Assembly: GCF_949628265.1 (NCBI RefSeq)
Contig: NC_088789.1
Span: 25,971,883 to 26,035,882, forward strand
DNA length: 64,000 nt
Source: Cloeon dipterum
Lineage: Eukaryota; Arthropoda; Insecta; Ephemeroptera; Baetidae
Reading direction: 5' to 3'
Part shown: positions 27 to 63,887 of the stretch, in pieces
Layout: every line of letters starts with the position of its first letter
Numbering within the stretch: the first letter of the stretch is position 1
The notes under the pieces: model-generated
What the model saw: only the letters and a program-made list of their open reading frames with translations
Database searches by the model: none
What the model was told of the DNA's origin: nothing
Translations under genes and position numbers: made by a program

Positions 27-3000
27 CGGCACGTCTGATAGCAGAAGACTTTCGGCTTGCCTATCAAAAATTTACACGACTGTGAGCTGAACTGCGAGTG
101 TATCCAAGTCATAGGCACCTGAGAAAAATGGAAGAATTTATTAAATTGAAATGTTAAATAAATTACTATGTCACTCACCGACTTGCCATCTGAGCACAAG
201 ATTGCATTTCCTCTACCACTAGTCTCCAGCTCTTCGCCGTGCGCCATGATCACCATGAAACACACATCAGTGCAGTAGTGGTCTATGCTCTGGGCGAAGC
301 TTCTGATGGCTCCCTTAAACATCTGCAAAAGACCAGTCAAATTCATTTGAATAAATAGAGAGTTAAATTGATTTTACCTCCGCAGTAACTTCCTCCTTAA
401 GATTCTCAGGGAAATTGGTAACTAGAAAGCCTAGCTCCCTCAGGAGTGCAGTAATATTTTTCGTGTCGATCTCTGAACCCTGGCGCTCCTTCTCTTCATG
501 GTTGTAATGGGGGTATGAATAGATGTTCAACACAAGTGCCGAGCCCTTAGGGTTGGACAGGCATCTGTAGACTTCCTGTGATTGTAATAAGACACTATTT
601 AATTGTTAAGTAAACAAACTGATTGGCGGCTGATAAGTTCAGTTCTTTCATAACAACAAATCATCAAATACAATGATTTACCGGAACATTCATTACTCAA
701 AAAATGATAATTACATTTGTTTTACATATTAACGCACTCACCTTGCGATTTAATTTGTTGTTTGCGTCCAAATCAAATCTCTTCCTGGATGGTTTCACTT
801 TGATGTGTCCGGGATTCGAGACTACTTCAGCATCCAAATCTTGGTGAGTTTCCATAACAAACTTAGCCTTTTCATTGTATGCTCCCTCCTTGACCGCTTT
901 TTTAACATCAGGATTGATGTCACTGAGCTTCTCTGTTAAAATAGATGGTTTGGCTCCGCTTCCATTGGTTTGTCTAGGCGGGCTGAAACGGAATTTTGAA
1001 TTATTTTAAACAGAAACCAAGGACAAATTAAAAGATACTTTTGGTATGAGATGTTTTCGCGAGGTTTGGAGTAATAATACTGGCTGAGGATATTTGTCAC
1101 TTGGGTATTGCGCATGAACGCGGCAGCTAAGCGCCTATACGGGTCCTCACACTCCATCTGCGTAACGTAGGAGAAAAAGTCAACAATTTTGGAGTTGGTG
1201 TGTGAAGTCTTCTGAAACACAAAATAACTCGATTTAAGGCAGGCGTCTCGGTGCCGTACAAATTGCGCACAGTTCAATAAACTTCCAATTTTCATTGTTG
1301 AATTGATCCTTACCCTTTTCTTTCAACAAGGAAAATTGCATTATTTGGCTGTTGAGCTGAGCACACCACAATGATTAGTTAGGGCTGTCTCCTTACTTGA
1401 AATCCGATTTAATTTCAAAGCCAAGAGTTTCCCCAATAAGTGGCATACACCGTTGGACAGATCTCGACGAGAGGAATCGGAATATGCCAAGTAAATATGT
1501 TCGAGCACTGTAAATTTTGGAGAAAATTGTCGAAATTTGAATTTTTATTGTAGGAAGGTTTTTTTTATTATTGCAAATTGTTGAACAAATTGTTTATCGG
1601 TCAATTGTTTAAGGCATCCTACAATAAAAATTCAACATTTTGCCATTTTTCTCCGAAATTTACAGTGCTTGGAATATTTTCTTGGCATATGTTCCGATTC
1701 CTCTCGTCGAGATCTGTCCAACGGTGTGTGCCACTCATTGGGGAAACTCTTGGTTTTGAAATTAAATCGGATTTCAAGTAAGGAGACAGCCATTGCCATT
1801 TGAAAAGCACGGTAACTTTCCAGCCAATTTTCTCAAAAAATTCCAGTGCTTCTCAAATCAATTTAGGCTTTAACTGAATCCTAAGGGATGAGTTTATGCA
1901 TTGGCAAAGAGCATTTTCCAGGCTTTTCCAGTATCATTCCTCTTTAAACCGATTTTCTCAAAAATTCAAACGGCAACCTGGGATTTTATTGCATATTCCT
2001 AATTTTTAGATATTTCAATAAGAGGACTTTGCATACATTTTCTGCGCAGCTTTACTTGCAAATTTGGAATCCAAATTTTTAATACTTATGTTCTTAATAT
2101 TTTAAAGAAAAACTTAATTAACAATAAATAACAGAACAATAAATTAAAAATGTTAAGCGATAATAATGACTTTACGTGCGAAAGAAAGGAATTCAAATAC
2201 TGTTATTCAACTTTTGTAACTTTGAATTAAGCAAGATGGTGAAACAGGAAGTCAACACTTACACCTCAAAACTGTACATATGTATTTCTATTTTTATCAC
2301 AAAAACTTCTGTTACGTTGTTACCAGCAACAATTTCAAGTAGTGAATAAAAAGTAAAAATCATTCAGCTAACACTCTCCATATTTTGGTCAGTTAAAAAC
2401 GTTGTAATATAAAATCTTCATTACTTGCAAACCTAAGTTTTATGTCGGTCTACATCATATACATTACGATAGAATACGACATATTTTCTGTTACTAAAAA
2501 AACCCTGTGCGTTTGGGAAAACCCTTGATGGAAATTAATAAATGCGCAAATTGGACTTACTTTAAAATATGAGTATTGATCTGAAGGTATCACGTCACTC
2601 ATCAAGTCCACAGCATCTTTGAGATTGGCGTTGGAGATATGGTCCGCGAGCTTGTTTATGTTGCTCATGATCAAATTGCGTTGTTCTTCATTCATGCCAA
2701 CAAATTCTTCTTGAGCCTCATCGCCATTTGACGAAAGCATCGTTTGAGTTGTTTCCGACTCCTCACTAATTTGGCTGAAACACAACATATTAATTAATAT
2801 TAATATTTATTTATGTAATGGATTAAAAAGACAATTTAAAATAGCTGATTAGTTGAGACTTATCAGTCTTAAAATATACAGCAAAGATAAGGAGATCTTT
2901 TCAATTTTGATAAGATCTATTTCCTTAGCCTAAGTAGAGCTTAAGCCGATTGAGCAAGTTGATAAATTCAACTTCCTGGATTTACATAAAAAGAAAAGTG

Positions 3001-4770
3001 ACTGTTAGAACCAAAAAATTAACTTCACGAGCCAATTTTAAATTTGTTATTATTTGCGATCAGGTCTGGATGATTTATTTTATCACCTTGTACCAAACAA
3101 ATTATTTAATTAGAATATTACCGTGTAATGGGGCGTGGACGTGACGGCATGAGCTTAATGAAGTGCTTGTTTATGTCGTCGAATCCCAGAAGATGACAGG
3201 TGTTGCAGAGTTCCTCAAACATGTTGGGGTGATCCAAATATAATAATTTAGTGTAGAACTGCCGAACATCCTGCTCGGTCTTTGAGTTGTCTCCAGTCTG
3301 CAGAACGGAAATGAATCAGATACATTTTGAAAGTGAGCTATTGTTTCACAGATCCTATATGATTCATACAAAATTTAGTGATTTTAAGGACATGTACGTC
3401 AATATTTCTTTTAATTGTAATAGTCAGAGCGTCGTTAAATTTTGAGAAATAGGCCAAAGCGATACTACAAACAAGTGCATCGTGACGTCATCGCTTTTCA
3501 GGGTTGCTTTTATAGACAAACAATCGGAATGGAGCAACAATAAAAAACCCTTTCAGCGCCAACCTGATGGGATTAAAGAGGGTATTCCCAGGACCATGTT
3601 TTCTGTGGACCTGGATTTAATACCCTTCATGGGAAGCACCTGGCAGGGCATGACCACCAAGTCTAGGAGGGTCCCCAGTCCTGGCATTATTTGCCAAATT
3701 TATCGAAAAAGCTTTCTTTTGATCCCTTTCTCCGGCGTGCAAATTGTGAAGTAAATTTCCCACCTACGCTAAACAGATCATGATTCCAATTGGGAGACAG
3801 ATGATGCTCACCGCTTGATTAGCATGCAGATTTAAAAACGGCGAGAAATTTTAATCATTTCCTAATTTTTAGATAGTATTTCAAATTAAGGCAAAAAGGA
3901 TTTTTACAAATAATGACCTATTAAGCTTCATTATAAGTGGCCTTCATATTAAGGGTTGTCACAAAATTAAAATGGCCTCTCTTCTTTGTCCAGCTCTTGT
4001 CTGCTGACGCTGTGGCCATTTCTAATAATTTCAAAGACACTCTTTTTGACTAAAAATGTTTAAGCACGAAATTTCAAATATTATTTGCTTGACGTCCTTT
4101 AAAGTTTAAAACTAAAATTAAATAATTCGCAGAGTTTATCATGCTTGAAACAGTAATAATTTATTTATAAAAGTTTTGAATTTGCCATCCAAATATTATT
4201 ATAGGTTTTATCCTCTAATTTTAAACCTAATTCAAAAGCAAAAGCTTCAGATTTCAATTTTTCAAGGCAAACATTTTATAAAACCGTTTAAACTCATAGG
4301 CATAAAATGATTGACAACCCTTCTTCCAAAATTAATTTATCAATAAACGAGTGATCGATGATCTCTATTATTTAAAATATCTAAATACATACATACATAC
4401 TTAATAAACAACACTGCTCATATTTGACCCGGAAGGTCACTGGGCTAAACTCACTCACCAGTTTGTACTCCTCAATTTCAACTCCATTCTGGCGCATCAC
4501 CTCAATAATCCGATGGATACTAACGCTGTTTGTAACCGTGACCAACGATTCCATACTATTGTTGATGCAGGCGACCTGTTCGGGGGTCATGCGGGGCACC
4601 TGTGGCTCAGCGGCCATCCCTCCGGCGACGACGTTCCTGAGCAATGGTTGCATCGCTGCAGACAGAGCTCCGTCAATCTCTTCTTCTGCGTCCTCGGATC
4701 TGTCGTCAGCTGCAGAAGGTGTATTGCAGGTCATGATGCTCAAACAGCCCCCCATGTCCTTCCATTCCAT
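27..4770 (-). CDS. Dual-CARD initiator-type caspase (Dronc-like), partial at left edge
   Basis: Cysteine protease of the caspase family, probably an apoptotic or immune initiator acting in cytosolic adaptor complexes. Exons on the minus strand: 4459-4770, 3122-3297, 2561-2774, 1039-1211, 742-982, 378-575, 179-322, 27-118; the rest lies beyond the left edge. Intron phases are consistent throughout. Exons 1-2 encode a CARD-like helical domain starting at MTPEQ. Exons 3-4 encode a second one starting at MNEEQ. Exon 5 is a linker. Exons 6-8 give the p20 subunit: the basic ERQGSEID motif, the catalytic His in MAHGEE, and the catalytic Cys in KPKVFCYQTCR. The Gly that normally follows, and p10, would be encoded off the window. 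Start chosen at the ATG of MEWKDMGG. The similarity I recall is greatest to insect Dronc, but two CARDs are unusual. Intron 1 holds a fossil ASH2L exon and intron 3 holds repeats. The plus-strand sister gene is at 55145-60761. Family assignment is firm; orthology is inferred. Confidence 0.9.
1249..1372. repeat. Palindromic MITE relic in caspase intron 3
   Basis: Degenerate inverted-repeat sequence related to the 142-bp elements at 37961 and 49141; it keeps the core words TTCATTGTTGAATTGAT and TTCAACAAGGAAAATTGC. The same relic sits in the equivalent intron of the plus-strand caspase (58033-58157). It was therefore present before the two genes were duplicated. Confidence 0.6.
1383..1791. repeat. 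Large inverted repeat (about 173-bp arms) in caspase intron
   Basis: The left arm (1383-1555) is an imperfect reverse complement of the right arm (1617-1791), with a spacer of about 60 bp. The arms share GGCTGTCTCCTTACTTGAAA and ATCTCGACGAGAGGAATCGG in opposite orientation. The right arm and the sequence following it to about 1940 match the dispersed element at 23317-23745. The left arm therefore looks like a second, inverted partial insertion. The sister caspase intron lacks it. Confidence 0.75.
3556..3700 (+). pseudogene. Fossil ASH2L exon 3 inside caspase intron 1
   Basis: This is clearly similar to ASH2L exon 3 at 62838-63010. It encodes readable remnants such as KEGIPRTMFSVDLDLIPFM and TKSRRV. 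It also retains the intronic acceptor tract (AATAAAAAACCCTTTCAG) seen upstream of the real exon, so it came from genomic DNA rather than from an mRNA. About 28 bp near the 5' end of the exon is deleted, more bases are missing after the NLMQ-equivalent codons, and the reading frame decays. It lies antisense to the host caspase. It cannot make a functional ASH2L segment. Confidence 0.88.
3800..3965 (-). repeat. Fragment of dispersed ~400-bp AT-rich repeat family
   Basis: Contains CGCTTGATTAGCATGCAGAT and, on the minus strand, a tract with AATACTATCTAAAAATTAGG. Related sequence occurs near 1975-2080, 19490-19760, 30885-31290, 39540-39950, 40195-40620, 50900-51150, 57585-58010 and 63110-63200. 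No coding capacity was seen. Mobile element class is unknown. Confidence 0.55.
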
Positions 4771-37168: not shown

Positions 37169-37960
37169 TAGATCAGTAAATTCAACATAGATTAATTTGA
37201 TTGTTGTTTTGTTGTTAAATTAGAACTTATAAATCGATTCATCCCATACTTCTAACAAAAATTAGGATATACAAAAAACAATTTTTTGCAATAAATTTAG
37301 AATTTCAGGTTGTTAAGGATAAATTTAATTATTAAATTTGAGATGATATTTCGCAACTGGTGAATAAAAGAACTTTTCTCTAATTTATTTCAACGTCTTT
37401 TTGATAAATTGAACTTACTATTAATTAATGTAAGCTGTATTCTCACCTGCTGGGCTACATTTTACAAGATTTCGATATCAAATTAAGCTTAAGCTCTGGC
37501 AAGCCCGGTCAGCCGTTTTTCGCTCACAATCAGAGCCCTGTTTACGTGCACTCTTGAAACGCCAGTAAGGAAGTGTCCATTTCGCAGTGACCGTCAACAC
37601 AACTCGCGAATTAATTGAAAACTCCTCTGTGATCCCTTACTCACGGAGCCGAGACAGGGGCAATTTTACTCACGAGTGCGACACCGGCCAATGGCCAAGC
37701 AAGATGCGCGTCTAAAAATAGACGAAATGCAGGTGCAGCAGGTGCAGGAGGGCAGGTGCAGGATTGCAGGTGCAGCAGCCTCTCTCGACGTCACAACAAA
37801 TACAACAAATATAAATCAAAACAACTTTCGGCTCATATCAAAGCTTAATGTGACAGCTCAGTTAGGGGAGAGCAATCACAGACGAAATCACGCGGCAAAG
37901 AAATGGACAAAAAAACGTCAAAAAGCAGACAGATTTATTGGGCGCCGAGGCAACACTTCT
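37169..37960. other. Scramblase 3' UTR and spacer
   Basis: Poly(A) signal AATAAA at 37363-37368. A short imperfect AGGTGCAG tandem run occurs near 37730-37765. No gene seen. Confidence 0.45.
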
Positions 37961-38102
37961 TCGTCCTAGTCCCGGCAAAATTGCGCGACGTTCAACAAAC
38001 ACCCAAATTTTCATTGTCGAATTGATTGTTGACCTTTTCTTGCAACAAGGAAATTCGCGTTTGGTTGTTGAAAGTTACGCAATTTTGCCAGGACCAGGAC
38101 GA
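37961..38102 (-). mobile_element. 142-bp palindromic MITE, copy 1
   Basis: Termini TCGTCCTAGTCCCGGC and its near reverse complement GCCAGGACCAGGACGA. Inverted repeats reach about 37 bp inward (GCAAAATTGCG, TTCAACAA). It has the same length as copy 2 at 49141-49282 but lies in opposite orientation. No clear target duplication. Confidence 0.85.
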
Positions 38103-38110
38103 CTTGCACT

Positions 38111-39000: not shown

Positions 39001-40991
39001 ATGAGCAAGGCACATCCTCCCGAGCTTAAAAAGTAAGTAATCGAGATAGATAATCTGTTTAATTCAAATTCATAGTAGGAATGCGCGTTCATATTGTGTA
39101 AACTGAAGTGAACACGCTTAGAAGGTTACATTGTGAAACATTGGAAACTGGCTGATTAATGTTTCTAATTTGTTTCAGATTCATGGACAAGAAGCTTGCC
39201 CGTAAGCAACTTAAAGCATTAATTTCAAGTACGGGTGTTCTAACTAATTAACTCTCTTTGCAGTGAAGTTGAACGGAGGCCGCTATGTGACTGGAATCCT
39301 GAGAGGATTTGACCCGTTCATGAATCTGGTTGTCGATGAATCTATCGAGGAAACCAGAGAAGGACACAAGAAGAATATTGGCATGGTGGTAAGGAATCAT
39401 TTGAAATTGTACTTGTATTTACACAATATGAAATTCGCCAAAGATAAAGAGAAAGGTGCACTACATACCACCACCTAGATATATAATGAAGATAGATACT
39501 CGTTTTAACCTTTTCTGTTTTGCATTATAATTTTTCAAACCGTTGGCAATGTGTTTAAGAAAAGTTTTACTGAAAAATTATTTTTGCCTTAACTTCAGAT
39601 ATAAAATTCTTAGGTTGCTGTCTAAATTAATGAAAAAATCGGCCGTAAAGTTAGCATGCTAATCAAGCAGCTAGCACTCTCTCCCTGTTGTAAAACCACG
39701 ACTATCCCACAATTTTGAGAATATTTGAGGGTTCAAAATTGAGCAAAAAATTCGTTTTTTTCCATAAAATCCAGCAAAATCTTAAATTTAACTGTTCCGT
39801 TGTCATGATTTCACTCTTGCACATTTTAGATAAAAACTTGTTGAATTTCACAAAAATTAACTCTACAAAATACTTTGCAATTATTGGTAACAATGCAAAA
39901 AGGTTTAATTATTGTTGTACTATAAAGTTCTACTGAAATAAACAATTTTTGCCACTCGAGATATTGAGAAAATTTGGGTGTAGCGTAAATTATGATAAAA
40001 TAACAAAAATAAATGTGTGTACCAAGAGATTTACATTTATTCTGCCTCTTTTTATCATTTCATTCATTGGGAAATTAATTTTTCTTCACCATAAAATGAT
40101 AAAGAGAAAGGTGCACTACATACCACCACCTAGATATAATGTAGATGCTCGTTTTTAATCTCTTCTGTTTTGCATTATAATTTTTCAAACCGTTGGCAAT
40201 GTGTTTAAGAAAGGTTTTACTGAAAAATTGTGAAAAATTATTTTTGCCTTAACTTCAGATATAAAATTCCTAGGTTGCTGTCTTAATTAATGAAAAAAAT
40301 CGGAGCTAAAGTTAGCATGCTAATCAAGCAGCTAATACTCTTTCCCTGTTGTAAAACCACGATTATTCCACAATTTTGAGAATATTTGAGGGATCGAAAT
40401 TGAGCATAAAAGTCTTTTTTCCATGAAATCAAGCAAAATCTTAAATTTAACTGTTCCGCGGTCATGATTTCATTCTTGCACATTTTAGAGAAAAACTTGT
40501 TGAATTTCACTAAAAATAAACTACAAAATACTTTGCAATTATTGATAACAATGCAAAAAGGTTTAATTATTGTTGTACTGTAAAGTTCTACTGAAATAAA
40601 CAATTTTTGCCACTCGAGATATTGAGAAAATTTGGGTGTAGCGTAAATTATGATAAAATAACAAAAATAAATGTGTGTACCAAGAGATTTACTTTTTTTC
40701 TGCCTCTTTTTATCATTTTATTTGTTGAGAAATTAATTTTTGTTCACCATATTTGCCTGAAAAATTTCTAGAGTCTTCTAGGGATGAGTTAATTCCTTAA
40801 AAAATGTAATCAGATAATATTTATGACAGCTCTTACCATTGTAAATTAAATCTTTTCCTTTTCTGTTTGTTTTTGTCTTAACTATTGATCCAAATTCATT
40901 ATTTTTCAACTGTTACTAAACTTTCCAAACATTTTTGCAGGTCATTCGAGGGAACAGCATCATTATGTTGGAGTCGCTAGATCGAATTTAG
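39001..40991 (+). CDS. SNRPG: Small nuclear ribonucleoprotein G (SmG)
   Basis: Core member of the seven-subunit Sm ring on U1, U2, U4 and U5 snRNAs, acting in nuclear pre-mRNA splicing. Four exons: 39001-39032, 39179-39201, 39264-39388, 40941-40991; 76 residues, the same length as human SmG. The N-terminus [17 protein letters not shown] is nearly identical to the human protein. Sm1 is [20 protein letters not shown], and Sm2 ends [16 protein letters not shown]. Residues for the Sm fold and RNA contact (the FDPFMN loop and the IRGNS loop) are kept. The last intron is enlarged by a 655-bp tandem duplication. AATAAA is at 41106. Identification is essentially certain. Confidence 0.98.
39443..40750 (+). 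repeat. 655-bp tandem duplication in SmG intron 3
   Basis: Unit 1 (39443-40097) and unit 2 (40098-40750) align end to end, both starting GATAAAGAGAAAGGTGCACT and ending at AAATTAATTTTTxTTCACCAT. Each unit contains one copy of the dispersed AT-rich repeat. Divergence is a few per cent by eye, so the event is fairly recent. It does not touch exons. Confidence 0.93.
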
Positions 40992-48610: not shown

Positions 48611-49140
48611 TGAGAAGCTCTGAATTTTATTGGTACTAATCACCTTTAAAAAAGTATTTAAATGAATTTATCAATATAAATATACAATAGAATATATTAA
48701 AAAGCAGCTGAATTTTCTGTTTCTTAATACTAACATGAATCGAGCCGAAAAAATATACATTAAAAATGATTCTGTCTGGTTTTAATGAATGTACAATAGT
48801 ATTTATTATATGATTTGACTAAATTTTAGGTCTACTATCATGATAACAAAATATGGCTCTGCTGCTCCCTGCTCATATTAAAATACAAAAGGAATAAATG
48901 AATTTTAGATTATAGTATTTGTCCATATTGAAAATAAGGCAAATTTAGTGATAATTAGAGTGAATATCACAAATTTAAAACTTAAATACCTATCTGATTT
49001 TATGAGCTAAGCTCTGTTGCTATTTTAAATTGTTTTTAAGGAGCATAATATCTTCTGACAAGGAAAAAATCAAATACGAAATACGAAAACTCTGCCTGGC
49101 TGTGTATTATTTTAATTTTAGTAATCAAAATTAAATAAAA

Positions 49141-49282
49141 TCGTCCTGGTCCGGGCAAAATTGCGCAACTTTCAACAACCAAACGCTAATTTCCTTGTTG
49201 CAAGAAAAGGGCAACAATCAATTCGACAATGAAAATTTGGGTGTTTGTTGAACGTTGCGCAATTTTGCCGGGACCAGGACGA
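49141..49282 (+). mobile_element. 142-bp palindromic MITE, copy 2
   Basis: Starts TCGTCCTGGTCCGGGC and ends CCGGGACCAGGACGA; the inverted repeats of about 37 bp include CAAAATTGCGCAAC and TTCAACAA. It is nearly the exact reverse complement of copy 1, in keeping with a quasi-palindromic element. No obvious target duplication. Confidence 0.87.
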
Positions 49283-50235
49283 AATATTAAATGCCGCGCG
49301 GACTAGGTATATGAGTATGGTGCTTATGAGAAATAGGATAACTGATTTGAACTCTTGAAATCGCCGAAATAAATAGTTTTCGTTAACTTGCGATAAATTT
49401 AAGTCTGCCCACAGTTATAACAGAGATATTACTGAAATACGATTTAAATAATCATAGAGAATTAATAAATGGGCTAACTCTCGGATCGGTTCTTTATTTT
49501 TCCAATTTGATTCAAAAGCCTAGATGAGCAATTCATGATGGTTTTAAAAAAATTCCAATTCCTATAAGCCTAAAAAGCAATCGCATTAAACACAATTGTA
49601 TTGAAATACTATTCGTGTGGTCGATGCAGGTGGAAAATATGCAAATCGAGTTTCCAACAACAAAAACCTCGCTGGCCCACAGCACTATAGCGCTTCCTCT
49701 TTCAATCAGGGTGAGAATGCATAATTTAAACTGCGAAGCGGAAAAGCGAGCGGAAGCGCTTTCATGGGAACGAAGTCGAAAATCAGTACCCGCCGCCTGT
49801 TAAACGGCTAATAAGGGATGCACCGATGGGGGTGCTTGAGCGCTCATGCATAATTATACACAATTGCACGTGAAAAAAGCGTGTGCACCGCTCGGAACAG
49901 TCACTTCCTCTGATTTTGAAACGATTTCGCGTCGATAACACTGCGTTGCACGCACCTGACGCGTCTTATATGTTAAAAAAGACAAAAAGTAAGAGGTGCA
50001 CGTTACTTTCGAAACAACCTTGTTTGGCGCATATAAACATGCGTGCTTGTTAATAATTAAACGCAACGGACGGATGAATGGTGTTGCATTGGCCAATATT
50101 CCGCCCGCATATCTTCATAATTTACAAGAGTGACAAAATTATGTGGAGCTAAAAACGAATGCATTCACTAACGAAATGTCAGTCTAGACCGACTTTTGAC
50201 AACAGCAACACATATTGTACAAAAAGTCTGCAAAG
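49283..50235. other. Spacer upstream of secreted-protein gene
   Basis: No coding signal recognised. The proximal promoter of the 50236 gene should lie here; no clear TATA box was found. Confidence 0.35.
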
Positions 50236-55144: not shown

Positions 55145-58100
55145 ATGAACTGCAAAAAATGCCAAACGCCTTCGATGACGAGAAATAATGCAGCTGACGA
55201 TGAGATACAGGAAGACGTAGGAGAAGAGATCGAAGCAGCGATCGACAGTGGGATAGCCGCTGACAATGAGCCACAGGTGGTGCCCCGCATGACCCCCGAA
55301 CAGGTCGCCTGCATCAACAATAATATGGATTCGTTAGTCAGGAAAACAACCAGCGTTAGATTGTTTCGGATTGCTAAGCTGATGCGCGAGAATGGAGTTG
55401 GAATTCAGGAGTACGAGCTGGTGAGTGAGTTTAACCCAGTGACCTTCCGGGTCAACTATGAGCAGTGTTGTTAATTAAGTATGTAGATATTTCTAATAAT
55501 AGAGATCATCGATCACTCGTTTATTGATAAATTAATTTGGGAAGAAGGGTTGCCTTTCATTGCCTATGAGTTAGAAATGTTTGCCTTAAGAAATTTAAAT
55601 CTGAAGCTTTCGCTTTTGAATTAGGTTTAAAATTAAAGGTTTTTCTTAAAAATAATTTTTGGATGGCAAATTAAAAACTTATATATTTAAATTCTTCCTG
55701 TTTCAAGCATGATATAAACTCTGCGAGTGTGCGAAATTTGTGATTTTAATTTTCAGTTATAAAGGATAATTATGCTCGTTAAACACATAAAAAGATTTGA
55801 AATTTCGTGCAAAAATCTGTGCTCCGAGATTTATCCAGCCGGTTTAATCCATGGTGGTTTAAAGTTTAAACCACTATTCAAGCCGGTTTTTTTCTGGCTT
55901 TTATAATTTTTTCACAGCTTGTTAAAAACCCACAAGTTATTTCAATAATTGTTTTTTATTTGCATTTTTTAATTATTTTTGCAGACCCTTTACTTCGATT
56001 CATTGCCCACTAACTTTCAATAAATCGTCTCAAAATATGCTGAACTTAAATAGAGTGGTAAAAATTTATGAAACCACCGTGGATTAAAACTCGGAACACG
56101 ACACAATGCACATGTTTTTAACAACGCATTTCAAAAATTTCACCGACGCGCTGACCAATAGAATTAAAAGAAATGTAAACACTTTTTGCATGTATCATAC
56201 ATGTCCTTTAAATTACTATAAATTTTTTATGAATCATATATGATCTGTAAAACAATAGCTCGCTTTCAAAATTTCTCTGATTCCGTTCTGTAGGAAGGAG
56301 ACACCGAAAAGGCCAAGGAGGACGCTCGCCAGTTCTACACTCAATTATTATATTTCGATCACCCAAACACTTTCGAGGAACTCAGCAAAGCCTGTCATGT
56401 TCTTAACTACCACAATCTTAACGAGTATTTCATTCCGCTTGTCCAGTCACGCCTACGCCCTAGTTTACGGTAATATATTATTAAATAAATCTTTTGTTTT
56501 CTAACTGCCCCACTTTTGATATAAATCCAGGAAGTTAATTTTATTAGCCTTGATCAATCAGCTTAGGCTCAACTTCGCAGCCAAGGAAATAGATCTATCA
56601 AGTTTTGAAAGATCTTTTATTTATGTTGTATTCTTTAGACTGTTTAGTCTCGATTAATAATTTTATTGCTTGTTTCAAAGTAATCTTTATTATGGTTCTG
56701 CAGAGCTATTTTTCCCAATACATTGCCATATATAGACAAAATAAATTAAATTTATTGTAAAAGAGAGGTAGTTCAATATTTCTTGAGGAAATGCATTGTT
56801 TTAAAAATTCTTTGAAGTTTTAAATCGTCATTTTAATCCATTACCTAAATAAACAATCATCTTCATTCGTGTTTCAGATCAGTTAGTGAGATTTCAGTGA
56901 CTAATCAAATGCTTAATCCAAACGTTGATGAGACTGATGGTGAGGAAGTCTTTGAAACTGTAGGGATCGGAATGAATAAGCAACAGCGCAGTTTGATCAT
57001 GACAAATTTAAAATATTTAGTTGACCATGTCTCTAATGCCGATCTTAGAGTCGTTGTATCCTCTATGAGTGACCTGATTCCTCCAGACCGACGCTTATAT
57101 TTTGAAGTAAGTCCCAATTGCGCATTTAGTCAAGGGTTTTCCCAAACGTGTGGGGCTTTTTTAGCACTTGAAAAAGCGACCAGGTCGCTAAAACGTCTGC
57201 AATCAAAGACAAGCCAGACAAGGCCAATGTTAAAAGGCAATCACACACTTCAAAATGTTTGCCTGAGATGAAAAATATTTAAATAGTCTGTCTTGAAGTG
57301 ACAATCATGACTGAGGCATATTTGTTCCATTGTTTGGCGATCTGAAAAGAAAAAGCTCGTTGGCCGAAAATTGTTCTAAAAGCGCTTGCTATTTATTCAC
57401 TTGAAATTTTTGGACCAGGACGAGTTATTGTGATAAAAATAGAAATACATAAATATATATATATACTGGTTTGAGTTGCAAAAGTGTTGACTTCCTGTGT
57501 CTCGCCATCTAGTTAGTTAAGTTTTTCTTTAAAATATTAAGAACACACATGTGCAATTACGTTTGGATTCAAGATTCGTGCTCTTCAAGTAAAGCTGTAC
57601 AGAAAATTTGTGCAAAGACCTTTCCTTGAAATGTCTAAAAACTAGGAAAAAAGCAAACAATCCCAGGTTGCCGTTTGAATTTTTGGGAAAATCAGCTCAA
57701 AAGTTTTCAAGCGGGGGCATCAACTGTCTCATTGTACAATCACGATTTGTGCCACAATTTTGGAAAAATGTACCCTCTAATTCGCACACCATTGGATGGA
57801 TCACCACGAGAGGCATTATTATGCGAAATTAATTTAATATTTAGAGATATTTGGAAAATCTAAAATTTAAGTTAATCCTGATTTCATTATTGCCAATCAT
57901 AGAAATTAACTGCTGTTAAATTTGACAAACAATAAACTCAATGAACCTACTCTTTCTTTTGTAAACAAGTCAAAATGATCTTCATTGTTAGCCTGTAAAG
58001 CTCTACTGTATTGAATTTTAACAATGATTTAACTAATCATTGTGGTGTGCACAGCTCAACAGCCAAACGCAATTTCCTTGTTGAAAGAAAAGGGTAAGGA

Positions 58101-60761
58101 CCAATAAATTCAACAATGAAAATTGGGAGTTTATTGAGCTGTGCGCTATTTTTTCGGCACGTGGTGTCAATTTTATTTCCACTATGTCGTTACTACATAC
58201 CCTATAAAAGAACGAAAACTAATATGATATTAATTTGATGAAAATTTCCAGCCTGCCCTAAATCGAATTATTATGTGTTTCAGAACACTCCCCTAACCAA
58301 CTCTAAAATCGAGGAATTCTTTTCCTACATAACGCAGATACAGTGCAAGGACCCGTATATGCGCATGGCTGAAGCGTTCATGCGCAACGTGCACGTAACA
58401 AGTATCCTCAGTCAGTATAACCCTCGTCAAAACATCGCAATCCACAGGTATCTTTTATTTGTCCTTGGTTTCTGTTCAAAATAATCCAAAATTCCGTTTG
58501 GAACCATTAAAAGTGGTGCCAAATCAATAAGCGTGAAAGAAGCATATAGGATGGATTTAGATGCAAACAGGAAATTCAATTGGAAAGTGAGTGCATAATT
58601 TATGTTATTTATATTGTATTAACCCAAATGTAATTATCATTTTTGATCAATTAACGTCCAGTTCTTCATTTAAATGTAATTATTTATCTTATGAATTAAT
58701 TTATATTTTTTCATTTGATTGATAATCACAGGAAGTCTACAAATGCCTTTCAAATCCAAAAGGGTCGGCACTTGTGCTGAACATCTATTCATACCCCCAT
58801 CACAAACTTGATGAGAAGGAGCGCAAGGGTTCAGAGCACGACACGTCACACATGACTGAACTCTTAAACGAGCTAGGCTTTCAAGTTACCAATGTCCCCA
58901 AATATCCTGAGAGTCTTAAGGAGGAAATTACTGCGGAGGTGAAATCAATTTAATTCTCTATGATTCATTCAAATTAATTTGACTGTGGTCTGTTGCAGAT
59001 GTTCAAGGGAGCCATCAGAAACTTTGCTCAGAGCATAGACCACTACCACGCTGATGTGTGTTTCATGGTGATCATGGCGCACGGCGAACAGTTGAAGAGC
59101 AGTGGAAACGCAATCTCGTGCTCGGACGGCAAGTCGGTGAGTTACGTTGTAATTTATTTAACATTTCATTTTAATAAATTCTTCCATTTTTGTCAGGTGC
59201 CTTTGACTTGGATCCACTCACAGTTTAGCTCAATGGAGTGTAAATATTTGATAGGCAAACCGAAAGTCTTCTTTTATCAGATCTGTCGGTAAGAACTTGA
59301 AAAAGTTGTTTGGTGATACAACTAAATAATTAACTCTAATCGTCAGTTACATGCAAACATACGGAAAGGTGGCGTGATTAAAAGGTGTGCAGTGATCTTT
59401 TCAATCAAAATGCACATCTCAGTTTTAGTTATTTTCACCAAGCAAAATTAGGAATATAGCACGCTGTTTGCATGCTTTTAGTTGAGCTGTAAAAATCTTT
59501 TCTAGTCACACCTGATTTTACTGTCTCAAGTAATTAGCTGTCATTGTTGGTAAATTTTAATCTGCGTTTCCTTGCAGGGGATCACATTCTCAGGACCCTC
59601 AGGTGGATCAGTATAATCTTGATGTGACTGCTGAAAGATCCAGCTCTACGTTGGATTGTACAGACCATGAAGATACAGCCTTCGAGTCTCCTAAAAATCT
59701 CGTAAGGATGCTGGATGACATGCTAGTTTGTCATGCTGCTCCTCAAGGTATTTAAAAAACGACTAATTTCATCAATTTCCTAAATATTTAAATTTCAGGA
59801 TTTGAAGCTCTACGAGACAGAGAGGTCGGCTCTGTTTTCATCCAAACCATAATCGAGGTTTTTGTTGAGATGGCCCATGATACGCATGTCCAAAGGATGA
59901 TGGTCGAGGTGAGCGTTACAAATAAATTACTAGCGAAGCATTAATCAAAGTCAAAATTAACCCTATTTGCAATTAATTTAGATTCATACACTATTTTTGA
60001 ATGTTCCGAGAAAATTTTGGTTTGTTTAACATTTTAAATATTCAATGAATATTATTTGAAACGCTTTAGTAAATATTTATGTAGCATTGAAAGTTTAAGT
60101 TCATTTTTAATACTGAGCAATGTTTCGAAAATGTTTTTTTTAAGATAATACCAACATTTCGAGTTCATTTTAATGATAGTTTGCGAATATTCTTTTTTAT
60201 TCTTCTTGCATCGCTGTTAAATTGCTGTAGCCTTTCAAACATTTTCCACGTTCAGCAATGAAGCGAATCTTGGTCTAATAGTTTAAATATTAATTTTACG
60301 ATTTTAATTTTAAAAGCGCTAAAACTGATACTTACTTGACAAACGGAATTTACATAAAAGTTCATTTTAAACATCTGCTGGCAACTCCGGTGTATTAATA
60401 ATTACACTCTTTTCTTGTTTGTTAAAAGTATTTCAAATGCTCCACATATTTTCATTTCATTGAAAACATTTTGTCATTTGTTTTACTTAATCTATTTTTC
60501 AATGAGTCGTATTTATGTAATGTGAAAAATTGAGTTGTTACTGCTCGTCACTAGTTCATTGAAATTTGTTTTTAGGTCGACCGACGTATTAAAAAGAAGA
60601 GCAATGCAACGTTCTCTCAAACGACCACATATGAATCCATTGGTTTCAACAAAGTACTATACCTCCATCCTCACCTGTACCGAAAGACTGAAGAAGAGCC
60701 AGAAGAAGGCGCATGTGGCGTCACAGAAAACGCTGGGACCTCTAATGGAGGAGACTGTTGA
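55145..60761 (+). CDS. Dual-CARD initiator-type caspase (Dronc-like), complete
   Basis: Predicted initiator caspase, 606 residues. Exons: 55145-55420, 56294-56469, 56878-57106, 58284-58447, 58514-58586, 58732-58938, 58999-59136, 59197-59288, 59578-59747, 59799-59908, 60576-60761; phases close. CARD-like domain 1 about 49-142 (MTPEQVACINNNMDSLV; then HPNTFEELSKACHVLN). CARD-like domain 2 about 178-275 (MNKQQRSLIMTNLKYLV; then CKDPYMRMAEAFMRN). p20 about 307-460: SALVLNIYSYP, ERKGSEHD, catalytic His403 in IMAHGE, catalytic Cys451 in YQICRG. Linker with Asp residues. p10: FEALRDREVGSVFIQTIIEV and GFNKVLYLHP. The plus copy has a short linker exon 5 with a shifted acceptor. The position homologous to the sister's ATG is CTT here, so MNCKKC is the likely start. 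Sister gene at 27-4770. Confidence 0.92.
57585..58010 (+). repeat. Dispersed AT-rich repeat in plus-caspase intron 3
   Basis: Shares GTACAGAAAATTTGTG, CCCAGGTTGCCGTTT and AGCCTGTAAAGCTCTACTGT with family members elsewhere. A related stretch in reverse orientation occupies the equivalent intron of the minus caspase (about 1970-2080), so it was present before the duplication. Confidence 0.6.
58033..58157. repeat. Palindromic MITE relic in plus-caspase intron 3
   Basis: Counterpart of 1249-1372 at the same intronic position, with AACGCAATTTCCTTGTTGAA and TTCAACAATGAAAATTGGGA in place. A separate end-like word GGACCAGGACGA lies at 57413. Confidence 0.6.
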
Positions 60762-62415: not shown

Positions 62416-63887
62416 ATGAAGGCTGCAGTAGAACCAACCAAAGATCCAGAAATGGATGCTGCTTCCAAAGTGTTGACCTCCATAAACGAGCCAGCCCCAA
62501 ACACCTTGAAGCCGACAGAGCAGCGAGAAGGAAACTGCTACTGGTCTCACGCTCATAAACAAATTAAGGCGTTTGTTTAACTTAAAATTTCTTCTTGCAG
62601 TGGCAAGGAACGCAATTTGAACATAGTTGAGCTGCTGTGCGCCTCATGCAGCCGCTGGTTCCACGAGTCGTGCATCGGCTACCAGCTCGGCAAACTGGTT
62701 CCCTTCATGATGAACTACGTTTTCTTCTGCAAAAACTGCTCTCAGACTGGCCTGGAGAGTTTCAAGAAAAACCAGGCTCGTAAGGATTCACGCTTGTGCA
62801 CTGATTTTTGAGTCTACATAAATAAAAACCCTTTCAGCGTTCCCTCACATGTGCATCACCGCCATCGCCAACCTGATGCAGGCCAGTATTAAAGAGGGGA
62901 TGCCCAGGACCATGTTTTCCAAGGACCTGGATATCATTCCCTTCATGGAGAGCCACTGGGAAGGCATGACCACCATGTCTAGGAGGGTCACCCAGTCCTG
63001 GCATGCAACGGTAATGCTTCTAGCGTTTCAATTAATTAATTATGACTATATTTTTTGGCTATGAAAGTTAAAAGGCCAACAATTACTTTGGAATTTTGAA
63101 TAAAAATTGTGAATTGCTCACCTCTAGATTAGCATGCAAACTTGGGAGCCGAGGTTCTTAGAAATTAAAATAACCAAGGGAATTTTTCCTCTTTTTTAAA
63201 TTGTGATTTAAGTAAAAGTATTTTTCACAGTTTCTGTTTTGTAAAGCTTTACGGTAACTTATTGATTTTTTATTCTCTGACCACAGATCCAAAGAACATT
63301 GGCAAAGGACATTGGCGTAATTTTCACAAATGAGGAATCACCCTCTCCAGGCGGCAATCCTGCCACTCTGGGCCACCCGCTGTTTGGTCTTCTCTTGCAG
63401 GACTTGACCACCATCAAGCCCAACTACGATGCCATGGTAAAGAGCGGAGCTCTGAAAATTACTAACACTGGAGTGCAGAAAGGAGGTATTATTTATTTAT
63501 TTTCGTCAAAATATTCAGAATTTATACATTTTTCCTTTTAAAGGCAATCTGAAAGGCAGAGGAACGAAAAGAAAACTGGACACGGCCGGCCCAGGAAAGA
63601 GGAAGGGTGGAGACGGGTCAACGACCAAGCTGCCCTCGCATGGCTACCCTTTGGACCATCCCTGGAACAAGGACGGCTACAGGTACATCCTAGCCGAGCC
63701 AGACCCGCACGCTCCCTTCCGCCAGGAGTTTGACGAGAGCAGCGACTGGGCCGGCAAACCTATACCAGGCTGGTTGTACCGCACACTCAGTCCGTCCACT
63801 GTTCTGCTCGCCCTTCATGACCGGGCGCCGGTGCTGAGAATCTCTGAAGACAGACTCTCGGTCACTGGCGACAAAGGCTACTGCATG
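62416..63887 (+). CDS. ASH2L: ASH2L, COMPASS/MLL methyltransferase subunit, partial at right edge
   Basis: Core subunit (WRAD module) of the nuclear H3K4 methyltransferases SET1/MLL; it stabilises the SET domain through RBBP5. Exons in the window: 62416-62543, 62601-62779, 62838-63010, 63287-63485, 63544-63887, giving 341 codons; the gene continues past the edge after YCM|GTAAGA. The N-terminus holds an atypical PHD-like zinc finger: [19 protein letters not shown], then WFHESC and CKNC. A winged-helix region follows: [44 protein letters not shown]. Exon 5 has a basic KRKLD/KRKGG segment, then the start of the SPRY domain: [37 protein letters not shown]. The order and wording match animal ASH2L closely. 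Donor 1 (TG|GTCTCA) is weak but forced by the conserved CYCGKE junction. A broken copy of exon 3 sits at 3556-3700. Confidence 0.97.

Follow-up and report, generated by a model that had tools for sequence, protein, structure and literature searches.

Initiator caspases are usually described with either one CARD or two DEDs, and a locus of Cloeon dipterum (contig NC_088789.1) raises the question of whether a caspase can carry two CARDs in a row and, if so, by which route the second one was gained. Within the window, i.e., the whole stretch of 64,000 nucleotides that was analysed, this caspase gene (gene A) spans positions 55145-60761 of the plus strand in 11 exons, as follows:

Gene A exon 1, 55145..55420, plus strand: acidic N-terminus, then first half of the predicted CARD1 from about 55286; ends in phase 0
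Gene A exon 2, 56294..56469, plus strand: second half of the predicted CARD1; ends in phase 2; 176 nt, the length of exon 2 in the sister gene C
Gene A exon 3, 56878..57106, plus strand: linker, then first half of the predicted CARD2 from 56969; ends in phase 0
Gene A exon 4, 58284..58447, plus strand: second half of the predicted CARD2; ends in phase 2
Gene A exon 5, 58514..58586, plus strand: short linker; uncertain start (58514 or 58532, each in frame)
Gene A exon 6, 58732..58938, plus strand: caspase large subunit
Gene A exon 7, 58999..59136, plus strand: caspase large subunit, including the catalytic His (MAHG)
Gene A exon 8, 59197..59288, plus strand: catalytic QICR/G at its end (the stroke marks the exon boundary)
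Gene A exon 9, 59578..59747, plus strand: linker between large and small subunits
Gene A exon 10, 59799..59908, plus strand: small subunit
Gene A exon 11, 60576..60761, plus strand: small subunit and stop

Exons 1-4 have GT donors and AG acceptors and end in phases 0, 2, 0 and 2, which bears out the phases given for them by an earlier first-pass annotation. Splice sites occur at all junctions of the gene, the full intron phase series reads 0,2,0,2,0,0,0,2,1,0, and the open frame comprises 600 or 606 aa, with the catalytic His and Cys retained. The acceptor of exon 5 looks weak and is unlike that of the paralogue, gene B, which lies inverted at window positions 4734-1 and continues beyond the edge, repeating all 11 exons and both prodomains. 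The exons of gene B within the window are the following:

Gene B exon 1, 4459..4734, minus strand: start codon, first half of the predicted CARD1
Gene B exon 2, 3122..3297, minus strand: second half of the predicted CARD1
Gene B exon 3, 2561..2774, minus strand: first half of the predicted CARD2
Gene B exon 4, 1039..1211, minus strand: second half of the predicted CARD2
Gene B exon 5, 742..982, minus strand: linker; 241 nt
Gene B exon 6, 378..575, minus strand: caspase
Gene B exon 7, 179..322, minus strand: caspase
Gene B exon 8, 27..118, minus strand: QTCR/G; exons 9-11 lie outside the window

Exons 1-4 of gene B (276, 176, 214 and 173 nt) have the same frames and end phases (0, 2, 0 and 2) as those of gene A, the phase series is identical over all 11 exons, and the open frame of 663 aa has splice sites at all junctions, with MAHG and QTCRG present. 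In the A/B nucleotide alignment, the gap runs of exons 2-8 are all multiples of 3 (none in exon 2; 3 and 18 in exon 3; 9 in exon 4; 165 and 3 in exon 5; 9 in exon 6; 6 in exon 7; none in exon 8), exons 10 and 11 align without gaps, and exons 1 and 9 have gaps of 6, 2, 1 and 3 and of 6, 2 and 4, respectively. Foreign stretches sit within the introns of gene B.

Both genes encode caspases (peptidase C14), as found from the match of gene A to the Pfam caspase domain PF00656 (E 4.1e-39) and from the motif pairs MAHG/QICRG in A and MAHG/QTCRG in B. Among solved structures in the PDB, the best relatives of gene A were two entries of Drosophila Caspase Nc (Dronc), at 100 and 97 bits, with the next at 77, and gene C likewise matched Caspase Nc best (109 bits), ahead of a caspase-2 chain (105 bits). 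A tree built from 9 caspase domains, those of A, B and C plus six references, joined A and B with C at 95, and that group with Dronc at 97; a grouping of A and B with Dronc to the exclusion of C was rejected (AU 0.016). Judged by the nearest caspase domain in these sequence comparisons, A and B are Dronc-type caspases. Drosophila Dronc, the closest solved relative of the gene A caspase domain, is likewise described as a CARD caspase, of the initiator type, but it has one CARD where A and B have two predicted ones, and its chain reads PFCRG at the active site instead of QICRG (A) or QTCRG (B). A genome-wide NB-ARC search for Dark gave 9 matches; among the five places inspected, four hold long frames resembling, on inspection of the sequence, NACHT/ankyrin proteins, and the fifth has no frame above 200 aa. 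No Dark gene was recognised in the genome by this search or by a human APAF1 NB-ARC query, which gave no match and was run without a positive control; the gene may well be present, in split exons. A search for the TTAGG telomere pattern found no match and was uninformative.

Gene C (C1:41228603-41231953, minus strand, on a different contig of the same genome) has a single CARD. The three genes share the caspase phase series and a CARD encoded by two exons that end in phases 0 and 2: gene C has phases 0,2,0,0,0,2,1,0, and A and B have the same series plus one 0,2 pair. Since the CARD exon pair is present once in gene C, genes A and B hold one extra symmetric pair, which has equal phases at either end and is missing from the sister gene. 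No second CARD exon pair was found when the 9.9-kb locus of gene C was searched; C exon 1 was the best match there for all four first-half exons of A and B, and C exon 2 was found by A exon 2 (E 0.006) and missed by B exon 2 and by both exon-4 queries.

Domain 1 resembles the CARD of gene C in both of its exons, with z 7.9 for exon 1 of A against C exon 1 and z 5.5 for exon 2 against C exon 2 (0 of 1000 shuffles each), and as a whole, with z 9.4 in A and 8.6 in B (0 of 500 shuffles each). The CARD of gene C, in turn, scores z 6.5 with CED-3 and z 4.4 with the CARD of Dronc. In profile comparison, P was 8e-7 between domain 1 and C, 1.5e-5 between C and CARD references, and 0.004 between domain 1 and the references directly. 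Set directly against six other CARDs (five reference sequences and one from the same genome), domain 1 reached at best z 1.1 in A and 2.2 in B, and against the Dronc CARD -0.5 and -0.2. Because these direct matches are poor, the CARD case rests on gene C as a link, through which domain 1 is, by sequence similarity, identified as a CARD. Pfam called no CARD in either domain of A or B or in gene C, and PDB sequence searches with domains 1 and 2 returned no CARD match; the Pfam result is discounted, since Pfam misses gene C and the CARD of Drosophila Dronc itself, at 21.5 bits, falls under the 23.9 cut-off.

For domain 2, the first half (exon 3) matches C exon 1 with z 5.0 in A (0 of 1000 shuffles) and 7.1 in B, and the whole domain matches the CARD of gene C with z 8.5 in B (0 of 500 shuffles) and 3.5 in A (3 of 500). 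Profile comparison gave P 7e-4 between domain 2 and C, with an hhalign probability of only 11-13%, and P 0.056 between domain 2 and CARD references; adding CARD2 to the C profile weakened the match of C to these references. The best direct z against the six other CARDs was 1.4 in A and 3.9 in B, and that against the Dronc CARD was 2.6 and 2.1. Domain 2 is CARD-type in its first half and in its exon arrangement, whereas its second half has no secure similarity. Of the earlier proposal, two units encoded by separate, identically phased exon pairs and followed by a caspase are supported; its choice of a CARD-type over a DED-type prodomain also stands, as the prodomains resemble the CARD of gene C and none resembles a DED in profile comparison.

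The first-pass annotation had further explained the two units by duplication of an exon pair, and of this claim the extra phase-matched pair relative to gene C holds, whereas the similarity between CARD1 and CARD2 is confined to helix 1 and the trees are not decisive. The opening helices, in the stretch and register picked by that annotation, share 6 of 17 residues ungapped, a score reached in 1 of 20000 shuffles. Whole-domain comparison gave z 0.1 to 1.1 in all four pairs and comparison by halves z -0.8 to 1.7 in all eight; direct similarity over the whole domain was rejected on these values and on profile comparison, and the CARD of gene C is a closer match to either domain than the two domains are to one another. 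Intron phases alone are weak evidence, since two-exon CARDs are also described in oyster caspases and in vertebrate caspase-2 and -9 (PMC7836458). The unconstrained CARD tree placed CARD1 beside C and CARD2 outside (support 59), and all three topologies were accepted (AU 0.49 for CARD1+CARD2, 0.60 for CARD1+C and 0.14 for CARD2+C); such sequence trees cannot separate internal duplication from other origins.

We consider it probable that two CARDs came to stand before a Dronc-type caspase through the insertion of a frame-neutral exon pair into a one-CARD ancestor, followed by the copying that gave A and B. This ancestor would have resembled gene C, with its CARD on one exon pair that was split by a phase-0 intron and closed by one of phase 2. 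A further pair would then have been inserted, frame-neutral because of the phase-2 introns on either side; local duplication would be the simplest route, and the pair presumably derives from the same gene. The gene would subsequently have been copied. In this reading domain 2 would adopt a full CARD fold, and a protein is presumably made.

The alternatives overlap one another and parts of this reading. The one that survives best, possible though distinctly less probable, is the capture of the second CARD from another CARD gene, e.g., from a copy lying next to it in tandem, on the model of the CASP1/CASP4 fusion of carnivores; gene fusion is the route reported in carnivores (PMC11117641). The greater nearness of both CARDs to gene C than to one another fits a capture, but two fast-diverging copies beside a slow C would yield those same distances. 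The unconstrained tree and the unrejected positions of CARD1 or CARD2 beside C are met by a sister pair of CARD1 and CARD2 that is also unrejected, and both exon pairs agree with the family's own CARD in phases and in split point.

It is rather unlikely that domain 1 is the one true CARD and that exons 3-4, of CARD origin, now encode a domain whose second half has lost the fold and forms a helical linker. Exon 4 shows no significant similarity to C exon 2 (z -2.0 in A, 1.5 in B), and among other CARD second halves only caspase-9 with B (z 4.0) and caspase-2 with A (z 2.6) gave values above the rest, a similarity that is not secure. The two single-exon pieces of domain 2 that were modelled are helices of poor confidence (pLDDT 76 and 64), the exon 4 piece of A giving two long helices at pLDDT 64, and this, the missing exon 4 similarity and the P value of domain 2 against CARD references would all suit a lost fold. 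Against such a loss, the two paralogues have conserved exon 4 (64% identity, dN/dS 0.35, 0.15-0.73), gene C matches the first half and the exon plan, and about 54 residues should suffice for helices 4-6.

It is very improbable that the two genes are duplicates in decay, or inactive decoys, without a working product. Between A and B, dN/dS is 0.36 (0.24-0.52) for the caspase domain, 0.37 (0.19-0.67) for CARD2 and 0.96 (0.53-1.98) for CARD1, so constraint on CARD1 is unsupported by this measure. Decay would agree with the CARD1 value near 1, the exon 5 acceptor of A and the intronic foreign stretches of B, but both frames are open, all splice sites and the catalytic His and Cys are kept, and the caspase domain has a low ratio.

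Two death-fold domains precede the caspase in Dredd. A tandem-DED prodomain of a Dredd-type caspase is hardly tenable here, matching the Dredd/caspase-8 plan of two death-fold domains but rejected on profile comparison (P 0.09-0.95 for six profiles against four DED references), and with a caspase domain nearest to Dronc and bearing QICRG. The domains of Dredd and caspase-8 are DEDs, in contrast to the prodomains of A and B, which show no DED similarity. A search of the genome yielded no DED above cut-off and therefore cannot point to a better Dredd. Caspase-8 is described with two death-fold domains before its caspase (PMC2779465).

Tandem CARDs had been called a new architecture in the first-pass annotation, which is too strong: a fused carnivore CASP1/CASP4 gene is reported to yield a two-CARD protein, with two-CARD and one-CARD messages both made, and two CARDs are predicted in macaque CASP5 (PMC11117641). 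The prodomain plan of A and B is thus not a new kind, although these mammalian enzymes are, as described, inflammatory caspases independent of Dronc, the carnivore form arising from gene fusion. Among the top open-access literature matches listed, a two-CARD caspase of an insect was named in none of the titles or abstract openings. NOD2, a receptor and not a protease, is also described with adjacent CARDs on a single chain, where they pack on one another and bind RIP2 (PMC3314614).

By analogy with other CARD caspases, the prodomain would likely dock on a scaffold that itself carries a CARD, either an apoptosome of the Dark/Apaf-1 type or a different adaptor, gathering zymogens. The second CARD might tentatively be seen as a second docking surface; packing against the first, like the tandem CARDs of NOD2, is somewhat more doubtful, and the remaining probability falls to a degenerate or spacer role. 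A two-CARD Dronc-type enzyme and a one-CARD sister in one genome form a natural before/after pair for the effect of a second docking domain on activation, and the phase-matched exon pair offers an example of domain gain without a frame break. It is improbable, if conceivable, that exons 3-4 constitute an optional cassette in an arthropod lineage, with one- and two-CARD forms of A and B docking different CARD partners and splitting apoptotic and immune duties, a division with an origin separate from those of carnivore CASP1/4 and the tandem-DED caspases. Exons 3 and 4 of gene A total 393 nt with phase 2 at either end, so in-frame skipping is possible and would give a one-CARD form; transcripts lacking them, regarded in the first-pass annotation as evidence against tandem CARDs, would keep the frame and leave the gene layout unaffected.

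The caspase gene with two predicted CARD prodomain units (gene A; CARD1 in exons 1/2, CARD2 in exons 3/4) comprises 11 exons, with a GT donor and an AG acceptor at every junction. When the 190-Mb genome was searched in translation with its protein as query, a second full copy (paralogue B) was found, and weaker matches on contig C1 corresponded to a one-CARD sister gene (gene C), whose exons were modelled by eye from the sequence:

55145-60761, plus strand: gene A
C4 (NC_088789.1):25976616-25970362, minus strand: paralogue B, from window position 4734 leftwards and past the window edge
C1:41228603-41231953, minus strand: gene C

The gene A protein opens with an acidic N-terminal stretch, followed by the two prodomain units at about residues 48-150 and 183-282; a linker then leads into a complete caspase domain (Pfam PF00656, E 4.1e-39), in which both catalytic residues, His (MAHG) and Cys (QICRG), are kept. 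The exon 5 acceptor is uncertain (58532, giving 600 aa, or 58514, giving 606 aa); the frame is kept by either, and the 58514 choice aligns with the serine-glycine-alanine-lysine stretch of paralogue B. The latter has the same 11 exons and a QTCRG active site, matches both gene A prodomains at 48-61% identity, and differs from gene A in exons 2-8 by gap runs that are multiples of 3. Intron phases are 0,2,0,2,0,0,0,2,1,0 in both copies, bearing out the phases 0 and 2 that the first-pass annotation had assigned to each CARD exon pair.

The gene C model encodes a 428-aa protein with one prodomain and a QACRG active site, and its phases (0,2,0,0,0,2,1,0) include one 0,2 pair fewer than those of A and B; no second CARD exon pair was found within the 9.9-kb gene C locus. 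Exon 2 measures 176 nt in all three genes, and the phase-0 split lies at an equivalent position, 45, 46 and 48 residues past the domain start in CARD1 of A, CARD2 of A and gene C, respectively. The layout supports a history in which a one-CARD Dronc-type gene gained a frame-neutral exon pair before the A/B split; the source of the pair may be the gene itself or a neighbouring one. Of the internal duplication proposed initially, the extra phase-matched pair relative to gene C stands. Tree tests accepted all three placements of CARD1, CARD2 and C (AU 0.49, 0.60 and 0.14), and the unconstrained tree joined CARD1 to C, leaving CARD2 outside that group (support 59). The shared phases are unsurprising in the CARDs of this family, since a two-exon CARD has also been described for oyster caspases and vertebrate caspase-2 and -9 (PMC7836458, in excerpt).

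The best solved relatives of gene A were both Drosophila Caspase Nc (Dronc; E 1.2e-27 and 1.3e-26), followed by a caspase-2 construct (1.8e-20) and then caspase-6, -9 and -8, and gene C displayed the same pattern (Caspase Nc 109 bits, caspase-2 construct 105). In a small, long-branched tree built from nine caspase domains (those of A, B and C plus six references: Dronc, CED-3, caspase-2, -3, -8 and -9), A and B joined C (support 95), and that group joined Dronc (97). A grouping of A and B with Dronc without C was rejected for these domains (AU 0.016).

Whole-domain similarity was scored by global alignment against 500 shuffles. The gene C CARD was matched by CARD1 of A (z 9.4) and B (8.6) and by CARD2 of B (8.5) and A (3.5), and itself matched CED-3 (6.5) and Dronc (4.4). 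The scores of the units themselves against six further CARDs were poor (best z for CARD1 1.1 in A and 2.2 in B; for CARD2 1.4 and 3.9), with values against Dronc of -0.5 and -0.2 for CARD1 and 2.6 and 2.1 for CARD2, in A and B respectively. The CARD case therefore runs through gene C, the link on which, judging from sequence, the CARD identity of the units rests. Profile comparisons gave P 8e-7 (probability 80-85%) for CARD1 with C, 5e-4 to 7e-4 (11-13%) for CARD2 with C, and 1.5e-5 (57%) for C with CARD references; relative to C alone, the latter match improved when CARD1 was added to the profile (2.6e-6) and weakened when CARD2 was added (6.5e-4). A DED prodomain is disfavoured, with z at most 1.5 for all five domains against four DEDs and P 0.094-0.95 for six profiles against DED references. 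The profile check suggested earlier spoke against DED and, against CARD references, for CARD1 as a CARD (P 0.004), with CARD2 at P 0.056, and the described likeness of CARD1 to CARD2 did not extend to whole domains (z 0.1-1.1 across four pairs; profile P 0.11-0.27).

By halves, the first halves of CARD1 and CARD2 in A and B match gene C exon 1 (z 5.0 to 8.7), and the second half of CARD1 matches gene C exon 2 (A 5.5, B 3.3); no match to that exon was found for the second half of CARD2 (A -2.0, B 1.5). Against the second halves of those other CARDs that were tried, the latter exceeded z 2 only for B with caspase-9 (4.0) and A and B with caspase-2 (2.6, 2.2), and half-domain values near 2-4 count little because many pairs were tested. 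When the gene C locus was scanned with single exons, all four first-half queries scored best at exon 1 (E 4e-4, 6e-4, 0.05 and 0.003), and of the four second-half queries, A exon 2 alone found exon 2 of gene C (E 0.006). Folding was limited to two single-exon pieces, both from CARD2, and the predicted helices (first half 4-23, 26-32 and 42-45, mean pLDDT 76; second half 4-20 and 24-44, mean pLDDT 64) are too weak to decide the fold.

According to Nei-Gojobori dN/dS values for A versus B (custom script), the caspase domain stands at 0.36 (0.24-0.52) and CARD2 at 0.37 (0.19-0.67); CARD2 is therefore under constraint between the copies. For CARD1, dN/dS did not show constraint between A and B (0.96, 0.53-1.98), although the resemblance of this unit to gene C is a hint of longer-term constraint.

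By analogy with other CARD caspases, the prodomain should gather zymogens on a CARD-bearing scaffold, as exemplified by Dronc with Ark/Dark (PMC3141678, in excerpt). The second CARD could offer a second docking surface or, alternatively, pack on the first, for which NOD2, whose CARDs pack on one another, is a possible parallel (PMC3314614, in excerpt). Exons 3-4 can be skipped without loss of frame, which would give a one-CARD form, much as the carnivore CASP1/CASP4 gene is reported to yield messages with one CARD and with two (PMC11117641, in excerpt). Since two-CARD caspases have been reported in mammals, the two-CARD plan is not unheard of, and the view of tandem CARDs as a new architecture is too strong. 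Among the titles and opening abstract lines of top-ranked open-access papers, no two-CARD caspase was found in insects or the Dronc group.

Several further features were observed along the A/B pair. A and B agree at 62 of the 66 positions that open intron 1 (55421-55486), and the gene A exon 1 frame stays open until 55474, a possible alternative exon end. In the first half of CARD1 (55286-55420), replacement differences are many and silent ones few (dN/dS 2.4, interval 0.75-11.7, not significant). Introns 4 and 6-8 (0.91-0.92) are more alike than exons 1-4 (0.67-0.76), and exon 9 (59578-59747; linker between the caspase subunits) is only 65% identical between A and B, against 92% and 84% for the introns on either side of it; one reading is gene conversion of the 3' half plus rapid divergence of exon 9. 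Within intron 1 of paralogue B lies a stretch of 142 alignment columns (3554-3687), antisense to B and 82% identical to 62863-63004 in the next gene downstream of A, presumably Ash2-like; it is perhaps a trace of the rearrangement behind the inverted copy. In gene C, the donor after exon 4 (C1:41231048) appears to be GC (AG|GCACGT).

Elsewhere, the sole CARD found by Pfam search of the genome (C3:11478003-11478242) belongs to another gene, presumably DLG5-like, and sits close to the N-terminal end of its open frame. Four long open frames that by eye resemble NACHT NTPases, most with ankyrin repeats (C4 29.27, 35.75 and 36.03 Mb; C2 3.06 Mb), possibly form an expanded immune-type family, and two of them have a PF00656 match within about 2 kb. 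The window also contains a 0.65-kb tandem duplication (39440-40751, 91% identity) as well as two inverted 146-bp repeats (37960-38105 and 49138-49283, 95% identity).
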